64,000 nucleotides of DNA from assembly GCF_900626135.1 (NCBI RefSeq), contig NZ_LR130785.1, positions 1 to 64,000 on the forward strand. Reading direction: 5' to 3'. Shown here in pieces: positions 23,299-26,140 of this stretch (its first letter is position 1; each line of letters opens with the position of its first letter). The notes under the pieces are model-generated. The model saw nothing but the letters and a program-made list of their open reading frames with translations, made no database searches and was not told the DNA's origin. A program made the translations under genes and the position numbers. Origin of the DNA: Senegalia massiliensis. GTDB taxonomy: Bacteria > Bacillota > Clostridia > Tissierellales > SIT17.

Positions 23299-23302
23299 AA
23301 AT

Positions 23303-23332
23303 ATAACCACTAGGGATTAACCTAGTGGTTAT
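23303..23332. terminator. Bidirectional terminator
   Basis: Twelve-bp perfect stem ATAACCACTAGG with 6-base loop between the convergent aminopeptidase and chemoreceptor genes, followed by TTTCGTT on the plus strand. Confidence 0.82.
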
Positions 23333-23336
23333 TTCG

Positions 23337-24869
23337 TTATTTAATCAATTCATTCATTTGTACAGCTATGTCTTTTAAGTTTTCAGCATTTGCCGAAAGT
23401 TCTTCACTCATTGCTGCACTTTGTTGAATTGATTGAATTAAAGTATTAAATTCTCCTATTGTACTTTCTGTATTTTCATAAATATTTTCATTAAAATTTA
23501 CTATTTCTTTTGTTTTATTAAGTTGTCCTTTAGTCATAACATTTATATTTTTTATAGTTTCAGTAAAACCTTTTAATTCTGATATCATATCTTTTACATT
23601 ATGTACAGTATCACCTACTATATTATTCCCTTCAGTTATATGATTATTATTATTAGTCATTAAATCTTCTACATCAGAAATTTTTGTTTTTAACTCTGTA
23701 GTTATTCCAGCTACATCTTTTAATGAATGCTTAGTATTTTCAGCTAGCTTTCTTATTTCTTCAGCTACAACTACAAATCCTCTTCCAGATTCTCCAGCTC
23801 TAGCAGCTTCTATTGAAGCATTTAATGCAAGTAAATTAGTTTGTTCAGCAATATTTCCAATAATAACTAATATCTCATCTACTTCTTCAGCCTTATTCTG
23901 AAGTTTTCTTGTAGCATCAAAAGTAAATTCTATTCTTTCCTTTATTTTATTCATAATGCTAGACGCTTCATTTAATGATATTTCATTTTTATTGGATTTT
24001 TCTATAAGTTCTAAAGCTATGCTCCTACTATTATTTGTTTTGTTATATATACTCTCATTCTCTGATAACAATTCATCTAATATATTTGTATTCTTTTTAG
24101 ACTTGTCTAACATAGAGTTACTTGATTGTAGTACATTATCACTAGTATAAGCTATTTCTTGCATAGCTGTACTTTCTTCTTCTGCTATAGTTGATACCAT
24201 TTTACTAGAGTCTAATAATGAATCTGCAAATTCAGAAGTTCTATTAAAAATGTTTGATATTTTTTGATTGTTATTTGCCAGTTCTTCTTCTCTTTTTTGT
24301 ATTTGATTAAGTATATTAGAAGCAAACAATGTAAATATAAATATACCAAAAGAAGTCAAAGTAATTATTATTGCTCTGATTACAAATTCTTGTATAATAA
24401 ACTCTTCAGATGGAAGTGTATTAGAGTTAAATGTAAATATAGCTATTTGACTTATAATTCCAGCAATTATAAATGCAATATTTAATTTAACATCTAAAAA
24501 TAATGCTCCTAAAATAATAAAGTAAAATATGCTCATCCATAATTCTTTAGATGGAATCATAAATACTAAATATAAATAATTTATAAAAGTCATAATAAAT
24601 ATTATATACTTTAAAATATTAAAATTCTTTTTATTAAAATTTCCACCTTCAATAGTTTTTCTATGCATTAAATAAAAAATAATAGATTCAACTATAATTA
24701 AAAGTCCAAATAATGACAAATCTAACCATTTAATTGAACTATATAACCCTAAATATTTCATAGCTGAAAAAGTTATTGCAGCTAATAATCCACTTATTGA
24801 ATAAATAATAAGTACAAATTTCAAAGTTTTTTTCTGATAATCTATTATCGTATTAGTATCTTCTCTCAT
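23337..24869 (-). CDS. Methyl-accepting chemotaxis protein with multi-pass membrane sensor
   Basis: Chemoreceptor of 510 residues. The N-terminus is an unusual sensor made of about six closely spaced membrane helices (about 15-195) with almost no extracellular loop and no visible HAMP. The long cytoplasmic coiled coil has the signalling hairpin [20 protein letters not shown] and [18 protein letters not shown]. The ATG at 24869 is preferred because AAGGAGG precedes it; an ATG 15 bases earlier overlaps that site. It follows the KAS III-like gene by 21 bases and so shares its c-di-GMP riboswitch. A ligand within or near the membrane is plausible. No other chemotaxis genes are in the window. Confidence 0.92.
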
Positions 24870-24890
24870 ATTAACCTCCTTCATAAATAT

Positions 24891-25895
24891 TTACCATTTA
24901 TAGCTCAATGCTTGCATAGTATAACCTGCTGCAACAGAACAAAATACTATTAAGTCACCTTCTATAAAATTTTCTTTTTCTAACCTTTCATTTAGAGCCA
25001 TTATTGGACTGGCACTACCAGTATATCCATATTTATCAGCTATAAAGGTAGCTTGTTCCGAAGTATTGCCTAATTTTTCTAAAGTAACTTTTATATCATC
25101 TTTAGAAAATTGTGACATAAAATAATGTGATACATTTTCTGGAGTATATTCATTTTCTTTTAGTAAGTTAACTACTAATTCTGACCACTCATCTGAAAGA
25201 AAGCTAAAATCAAAAGGTTTCCATTGCATCTTTCTATCATAGCTTGTTATATTTGTATCAACTATATTTTCAAGTCCACATTCTGGAAATCTTATAGTAT
25301 CATTGTAATTATCATCAGTAAACATTCTTGTTGCTAAAAACCCTCTTTGTTTGTCTTCTTCTATAGATTCTAAAATAATTGCAGCAGCACCATCTCCTAC
25401 AATAGAATATGTAATCATATCATCTTCCCTAGCAAAAGGACTTACATGTAAAGAACCAATTATTAAAGCTCTTTTAAATTTTTTATCAGTTTTTAAATAT
25501 CTAGTTGCTACATCAATAGCACTTATCATACCAACACAATTATTGTTTAAATCAAAAACTGATGTTGCATTAGTAGCCTTTAATTCATTTCTCATCATCA
25601 ATGCACAAGAAGGCATTAAATATTGTGGTGTATCTGTAGCAGATATTATTATATCTATATCTTCAGGAGAAAGATTTGCATTTTTCAATGCTTTTTTAGC
25701 AGACTTAACTCCCATACCTATCATACTTTCATTTTCATCAGCTTGCTTTCTTATGTCTCTACCTAATTTTTTCATTAAATTAGTTACATGATCATCTAAT
25801 TCATACTTTTTAAAGTGGTCTATCACTTCTTTATTTCTCACTTCTTTTGTTGGATTATATGAACCAACACCTTTTATTAGTACATTTTGATACAT
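24891..25895 (-). CDS. 3-oxoacyl-ACP synthase III-like protein with altered catalytic triad
   Basis: Thiolase-fold enzyme of 334 residues related to FabH (KAS III). The acyl-accepting cysteine C120 is present in LNNNCVGMISA, and VGDGAAAIIL (about 166-175) matches the family. The other two FabH residues appear replaced. The His motif PHQAN aligns with MSQFS (Ser261), and the Asn of YGNTS aligns with Y291 in KYGYTGSAS. This argues against ordinary decarboxylating condensation in fatty-acid synthesis and for an acyl-transfer or specialised condensing role. Start ATG follows GGGGAGTG. It is first in a two-gene unit with the chemoreceptor, under a c-di-GMP-I riboswitch. There are no other fatty-acid genes nearby. 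Confidence 0.85.
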   Translation of the reverse strand: MYQNVLIKGVGSYNPTKEVRNKEVIDHFKKYELDDHVTNLMKKLGRDIRKQADENESMIGMGVKSAKKALKNANLSPEDIDIIISATDTPQYLMPSCALMMRNELKATNATSVFDLNNNCVGMISAIDVATRYLKTDKKFKRALIIGSLHVSPFAREDDMITYSIVGDGAAAIILESIEEDKQRGFLATRMFTDDNYNDTIRFPECGLENIVDTNITSYDRKMQWKPFDFSFLSDEWSELVVNLLKENEYTPENVSHYFMSQFSKDDIKVTLEKLGNTSEQATFIADKYGYTGSASPIMALNERLEKENFIEGDLIVFCSVAAGYTMQALSYKW

Positions 25896-25939
25896 TTTAC
25901 ACTCCCCTTTAGTTTAGTTACTAAGAAGATAGACAAAGT

Positions 25940-25973
25940 AAAATAGATAACTCTAAGTAGAGCTATCTATTTT
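25940..25973 (-). terminator. Riboswitch expression-platform terminator
   Basis: Fifteen-bp stem (AAAATAGATAGCTCT on the minus strand, one G-U pair) with loop ACTT and a U-rich tail, directly after the c-di-GMP aptamer. ACTTAG in its loop can pair with CTAAGT from the aptamer's closing stem, which suggests a switchable terminator. Confidence 0.78.
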
Positions 25974-25982
25974 ATAGCGATC

Positions 25983-26069
25983 AACTTAGCGGCTTGGCAA
26001 TCATAGATTAATTCCTTAGACCCATAGCTTTGCGTCCTTAACTTTCGATAAGTTTGCCTTTATTAAGTT
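25983..26069 (-). ncRNA. c-di-GMP-I (GEMM-I) riboswitch aptamer
   Basis: On the minus strand the RNA has closing stem AACTTA/TAAGTT around the GEMM-I conserved blocks in order: AAAGGCAAACTTAT, CGAAAG, GGACGCAAAGC, GGGTCTAAGG (tetraloop receptor side) and TTGCCAAGCCGC. These match the Vc2-type class I aptamer, including the GAAA loop and the GACGCAAAGC core. It lies about 90 bases upstream of the KAS III-like gene, with a terminator between. Together they would make the KAS III-chemoreceptor operon respond to c-di-GMP. The short antiterminator option (CTAAGT with ACTTAG) suggests an OFF switch, with low certainty. Confidence 0.93.
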
Positions 26070-26140
26070 ATATAATTCGACAATATTTTACTAGATTATA
26101 ATATCATATAAAGTATCTTTTTCCAATATATTAATAAAAA

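Follow-up and report, generated by a model that had tools for sequence, protein, structure and literature searches.

The stretch of DNA analyzed here (the window) comprises 64,000 nucleotides from Senegalia massiliensis (contig NZ_LR130785.1, positions 1 to 64,000). On its minus strand lie, in order, a probable promoter, a c-di-GMP-I riboswitch aptamer, a terminator, a gene for an enzyme of the KAS III fold, a chemoreceptor (MCP) gene, and a bidirectional terminator (Table 1). The first-pass annotation had described the two genes as one unit with a 21-nucleotide gap, and this spacing is borne out if the chemoreceptor starts at the ATG at 24869, downstream of AGGAGG; the open reading frame list gives the start as 24884. 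The promoter arrangement TTGGAA-N17-TATTAT is also kept upstream of the riboswitch of A. frigoriresistens. The bidirectional terminator reads AACCACTAGG-TTAATC-CCTAGTGGTT, then TATATTTTT. Since the S. massiliensis genome encodes one CheA (by its dimerization domain), two flagellins, nine MCP domains, and seven GGDEF matches, both ends of the circuit proposed below exist in this organism.

Table 1. Features of the riboswitch-enzyme-chemoreceptor locus (window coordinates)
Feature	Position	Strand	Details	Basis
Probable sigma-A promoter	26098..26126	-	-35 TTGGAA 26126-26121, 17-nt spacer, -10 TATTAT 26103-26098	Consensus match only
c-di-GMP-I riboswitch aptamer	25983..26069	-	P1 formed by 26069-26064 with 25988-25983	RF03167 and RF01051 above gathering
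Antiterminator (predicted)	25953..25989	-	CUAAGU (25989-25984, part of P1 3' strand) with ACUUAG (25958-25953, terminator loop/arm)	Folding
Intrinsic terminator hairpin	25939..25974	-	-17.2 kcal/mol; followed by CUUUGUCU	
RBS of KAS gene	25902..25910	-	AAAGGGGAG, 6 nt 5' of ATG	Sequence reading
KAS III-fold enzyme	24891..25895	-	334 aa; Cys120/Ser261/Tyr291 at the FabH Cys-His-Asn sites	Pfam, NCBIfam, alignment
RBS of chemoreceptor gene	24875..24880	-	AGGAGG	Sequence reading
Chemoreceptor	23337..24869	-	510 aa; N-terminal six-membrane-helix bundle and C-terminal MCP signaling domain	PF00015, AlphaFold
Bidirectional hairpin terminator	23302..23332	.	Between receptor gene and convergent M29 peptidase gene	Sequence reading

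The riboswitch and its predicted direction

The aptamer had originally been placed at 25983-26069, the same span that we obtained with P1 (AACUUA/UAAGUU) included, and an Rfam scan matched it to RF01051 (c-di-GMP-I) at 72.4 bits, above the gathering threshold of 35. RF03167 (c-di-GMP-I-GGC) matched the same place (25984-26067, minus strand; 67.0 bits against a gathering threshold of 59, E value of 1.2e-13) and was the family retained in the Rfam clan comparison. We infer that "GGC" in the name refers to bases of the RF03167 consensus, CGCGAAGC, which has G at the position of Vc2 A47; the window reads CGCAAAGC, and with A at this key base a true GGC variant aptamer is doubtful. The ligand-contact bases G20, A47, and C92 (in what we take to be Vc2 numbering) are as in ordinary c-di-GMP aptamers, judged by eye from the RF03167 alignment (GGCAAAC, GCAAAGC, and CGCUAAG), and the aptamer would be expected to bind c-di-GMP.

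Elsewhere in the same genome, a second c-di-GMP-I riboswitch (L002 1501-2147; C1:1165171), at which no terminator was seen, closely precedes the gene of a small exported protein with a Pfam M73 camelysin match (7.2e-11), and it probably exerts translational control over a TasA/CalY-like surface protein. A. frigoriresistens carries three tandem c-di-GMP-I riboswitches (G002 C11:235631-236079) and seven in its whole genome.

A terminator had been proposed at 25940-25973, and folding recovered a hairpin there with the boundaries given in Table 1. When the transcript was ended at the terminator loop and folded without constraint, the P1 3' strand (CUAAGU) paired with the loop (ACUUAG) at -24.2 kcal/mol, compared with -21.0 kcal/mol when P1 was enforced, so that folding without ligand prefers the antiterminator by 3.2 kcal/mol. 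The antiterminator duplex of the window, taken alone, was not significant against shuffled sequences (z = -0.5). In many relatives, pairing between the P1 3' strand and the terminator, with sequences that differ, was far beyond shuffles (for example, z = -4.4, -4.2, -4.3, and -3.3), and in the leaders of a few relatives shuffle-tested folding gave no clear antiterminator. Terminators were present in almost all intact leaders examined; that of A. frigoriresistens keeps the hairpin and the ACUUAG loop, with diverged arms.

Because the P1 3' strand is shared with the antiterminator, a ligand that locks P1 should free the terminator, and c-di-GMP should therefore turn the unit off. The riboswitch had been described as driving the two genes; the c-di-GMP riboswitch itself is supported by the Rfam scores, and on the basis of folding the direction is modified to a predicted OFF switch. 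The opposite direction, in which c-di-GMP activates the unit by preventing termination, could hold whatever the enzyme does. Both ON and OFF switches occur among cyclic-dinucleotide riboswitches of this class (PMC9262584), and the terminator is present in the fold of the full leader when no ligand is modeled. However, because the terminator loop or 5' arm is what the P1 3' strand pairs with, a locked P1 should release the terminator, and we consider an ON switch unlikely. A precedent for the OFF direction is Cd1, which precedes the flagellar operon of Clostridioides difficile and shares with the window the aptamer family, the terminator platform, the OFF logic, and a motility-type target (PMC9262584); Cd1 controls flagellar genes, whereas the genes behind the window riboswitch encode a KAS-fold enzyme and a single chemoreceptor. 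The computation thus resolves the architecture of the switch, from which we infer binding and direction.

A. gelatinilytica (L006 5063-5142) has naturally lost the terminator together with the aptamer's 3' half; the KAS ribosome binding site and ATG come directly next, and the upstream promoter region is kept. With these elements missing, the KAS gene of this species should be constitutive.

An altered KAS III-fold enzyme and its exchangeable partners

The first-pass annotation of the enzyme as KAS III-like was correct as to fold (PF08541, 3e-18; PF08545, 1.7e-14), and the enzyme differs from an ordinary KAS III in its active site. The enzyme scored 150.8 bits with the NCBIfam FabH model TIGR00747, below the cut-off of 292.1, 156.9 bits against a cut-off of 249 with NF006829, and 35 bits against a cut-off of 550 with the DarB model. 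In an alignment with FabH, whose catalytic residues are Cys112, His244, and Asn274, the cysteine is kept (Cys120), while the histidine and asparagine are replaced by Ser261 and Tyr291. The same holds among 132 aligned copies from Clostridia, with Cys in 132/132, Ser at the His site in 127/132, and Tyr at the Asn site in 132/132, and seven copies from Bacilli have the same Cys and the same SQ and GYT motifs. In contrast, Cys-His-Asn is present in all 19 FabH-like control paralogues from the same order. Condensation by KAS III enzymes is served by the His and Asn, so decarboxylative or ordinary KAS III activity is unlikely for an enzyme that has neither, and its sequence is compatible with a possible Cys-based acyl transfer. 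A corresponding role is described for related enzymes (PMC9573744). The AlphaFold model of the enzyme has a pLDDT of 41.6, and the active-site reading rests on sequence. Assignment as a FabH paralogue was rejected on the active site, the NCBIfam cut-offs, and the neighbors. Two related KAS-fold proteins (L016 and L017) have Gln/Tyr at the His/Asn sites and adjoin a CoA-transferase gene; they perhaps form a second noncanonical class.

The chemoreceptor carries an MCP signaling domain (PF00015, 9.7e-34, 117.1 bits against a threshold of 34.6). Its membrane part, for which about six helices and hardly any outside loop had been proposed, is modeled by AlphaFold in just this way, as six helices with short links (residues 3-40, 48-72, 80-104, 108-124, 127-149, and 157-202; mean pLDDT of 66). 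No Pfam family matched this part, and the best Foldseek match to the six-helix domain, a low-confidence model, had an E value of 0.07 and a TM score of about 0.3. For most partner MCPs across the copies, about four to six membrane spans are predicted close to the N terminus; a minority are soluble. Among the soluble ones are MCPs of ~280 aa that are divergent neighbors of KAS copies at a distance of 600 to 800 nt (L173, L178, L180, and L186).

Riboswitch, KAS gene, and MCP gene were found together in each of the four genomes searched within the genus, one with a truncated riboswitch, a recurrence that argues against chance; the KAS-MCP pair also occurs in a different family, at 56% and 47% identity. 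Searches for the enzyme subfamily found it in 12 of 249 genomes of the order (two more distant matches aside), 15 of 391 of the class (the window's genome included), and 90 of 207 of a clostridial family. The 132 copies have an MCP neighbor in 77 cases (26 with a riboswitch), a small protein that we call c2 in 43 (8 with a riboswitch), and neither in 12 (2 with a riboswitch), whereas none of the 19 FabH-like controls has an MCP or c2 neighbor. The pairing of enzyme and receptor genes that had been described is thus conserved far more widely than the genus, with c2 replacing the MCP in many relatives. The c2 protein is ~120 aa long, has invariant K, G, F, L, Y, F, and Q residues, and alternates with the MCP as the enzyme's partner (L072-L077, L081, L089, L092, and others). 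It matches no named family in Pfam, NCBIfam, or the PDB sequences; inspection by eye raised the suspicion of a STAS or lipid-binding fold, for which these three sources gave no usable match.

Relative to the KAS gene, the MCP gene is downstream on the same strand in 45 cases, upstream and divergent in 23, upstream and codirectional in 5, and convergent in 4. That adjacency survives such reorientation is an argument that the genes function together. Partner type requires at least 16 changes on the tree, compared with 47 in shuffles, and is thus clustered yet repeatedly exchanged. One clade has the riboswitch-led unit as KAS-MCP in some members and as c2-KAS in others.

A c-di-GMP-I riboswitch lies upstream of 36 of the 132 copies, with one of these riboswitches truncated, and at least 8 changes of riboswitch state are required on the tree. 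These aptamers were found with a model built from 19 of them, whose members match by construction; RF01051 itself reached the gathering level in L063 and L064 and just upstream of the KAS gene in further genomes, mostly picked for having a match. For an aptamer within 750 nt upstream on the same strand, the chance per gene is about 0.1% or less, an estimate based on the one to seven aptamers per riboswitch-bearing genome checked, compared with 27% observed among relatives that are not independent. The module of enzyme and partner under c-di-GMP control is therefore real and conserved far beyond the genus, across many Firmicutes. Some KAS-linked aptamers have A20 in place of G20 (L063, L064, L092, L093, L126, L127, and others), and some also have UAGCACAC; the base at this selectivity position is not the same in the sisters L126 and L127. 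As A20 shifts the selectivity of the GEMM class toward 3',3'-cGAMP (PMC6274999; PMC9262584), some of these aptamers may sense 3',3'-cGAMP.

In a phylum-wide sample, the subfamily occurred outside the class in five genomes of one further family (6.4 to 7.3 Mb), which we took for Bacilli (Paenibacillus-like), partly from gene content. Five loci (among them L202, L204, and L207) have the gene order ThDP enzyme, CMD protein, c2, KAS; the ThDP enzyme (PF00205/02775/02776) is acetolactate-synthase-like, below cut-offs, and the CMD protein has PF02627. In two of the five, RF01051 matches ahead of the operon (75.6 and 68.4 bits), and an MCP gene lies immediately upstream. The strongest argument that a product is made comes from this position of the KAS gene amid apparent biosynthetic genes.

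Relation to known systems

PpyS and DarB are KAS III-like makers of small signals that are read by cognate LuxR-type regulators, and they resemble the window in fold and, on the reading proposed below, in a small signal with a cognate receptor, but differ from it in their LuxR-type output. CqsA and LqsA are PLP enzymes, and where CqsA/CqsS combines a PLP synthase with a histidine kinase, Pfam shows the KAS III fold for the window's enzyme and an MCP domain for its receptor. Compared by topology only, CqsA/CqsS and LqsA/LqsS are likewise an enzyme gene with a six-helix, few-loop receptor (PMC4821796; PMC3376566); CqsS and LqsS have hardly any loops and bind lipophilic signals (PMC4821796). CerJ and ChlB3 share with the window enzyme a KAS III fold, a changed active site, and the catalytic Cys (PMC9573744), but they use Cys-His-Asp, whereas the window has Cys-Ser-Tyr and no antibiotic cluster.

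The pair itself appears in published expression data, through a copy in C. acetobutylicum (G765) that we take to be CA_C0814/CA_C0815, matched partly by gene position. These genes, annotated as a 3-oxoacyl-ACP synthase III next to an MCP, are coregulated: in two alcohol-dehydrogenase mutants their levels drop jointly, to 0.11/0.13 in one and 0.02/0.04 in the other, and the pair is listed as downregulated under butanol stress (PMC4845359). The MCP gene lies upstream there and downstream in the window, and no c-di-GMP-I riboswitch was found at the CA_C0814/CA_C0815 locus. The literature searched held no description of the module combination, the active-site type, or c2, and it held the pair only as table rows for CA_C0814/0815. 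The parts are each of a known kind; the whole would be an enzyme-receptor signaling pair with chemoreceptor output.

Proposed circuit and alternative readings

In the circuit that we propose, at low c-di-GMP, the motile state, the P1 3' strand would pair with the terminator loop, no terminator would form, and both genes would be transcribed; at high c-di-GMP, the aptamer would lock P1, the terminator would form, and transcription would end in the leader. The Cys-Ser-Tyr enzyme probably forms an acyl-Cys intermediate and passes the acyl group to a non-malonyl acceptor, giving a small hydrophobic molecule that the adjacent six-helix receptor would bind in the membrane, feeding CheA and the flagella. 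In other species, c2 would fill the receptor slot, probably as a soluble partner for the same product. Cells would produce a shared metabolite and track it while swimming, and would cease to do so when c-di-GMP rises.

We give even odds (a probability of roughly 0.5) to the central part of this proposal, that the enzyme makes an acyl-derived ligand sensed by the receptor, a reading already suggested in the first-pass annotation and helped by the Bacilli operon and by the analogy with six-helix quorum sensors. Counting against it are the many copies with c2 and no adjoining MCP, the 12 with neither, and the soluble forms among the neighboring MCPs, which fit a membrane ligand less well. The broader proposal, a widespread self-signaling taxis of Firmicutes in which a new class of hydrophobic signal is read by a membrane-bundle receptor or by soluble c2, with c-di-GMP as the off switch, is tentative.

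The KAS-fold protein could instead be a cytosolic sensor of acyl-CoA or acyl-ACP whose acylated Cys reports on metabolism as the protein touches the MCP or c2, letting the cell navigate by its own acyl-CoA state with no diffusible product. Loss of the condensation His and Asn with retention of the Cys fits such a sensor, as does one constant protein with exchangeable signaling partners, some of them soluble, but in Bacilli the gene is last in a pathway-like ThDP enzyme/CMD operon, and we know of no KAS-fold protein that contacts MCPs; we regard this explanation as less likely than the maker-and-sensor reading. It is improbable that the acyl group ends up on the receptor or on a lipid of the membrane, setting receptor sensitivity with no ligand involved: the input part of the receptor is wholly membrane embedded in the AlphaFold model and KAS III-fold enzymes such as CerJ and ChlB3 can be pure acyltransferases (PMC9573744), but those two rely on Cys-His-Asp, and a shared acceptor site was not found between the MCP and c2 partners. 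A spare FabH for ordinary lipid supply that lies next to a receptor gene with no joint function would share the fold and Pfam domains but is very improbable, given that none of the 132 copies has the active site of FabH, that the genome contains other KAS III/FabH-like genes, and that the pairing is conserved across families in several orientations and absent from the 19 controls.

It is unusual for a chemoreceptor to have a genetically fixed partner enzyme, and ligands are known for few chemoreceptors. The enzyme subfamily marks the receptor or other partner in more than 100 gene copies and, in a quarter, also the time of action (low c-di-GMP), so that the question of the ligand becomes directly testable in laboratory clostridia; R. 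cellulolyticum H10 and C. acetobutylicum ATCC 824 both have the pair, in riboswitch-free form. The analysis also draws attention to the c2 family and to an active-site type, which current databases either list under FabH or do not name. If the maker-and-sensor reading is true, Firmicutes would gain a lipid-like signal system tied to the decision to swim or settle.
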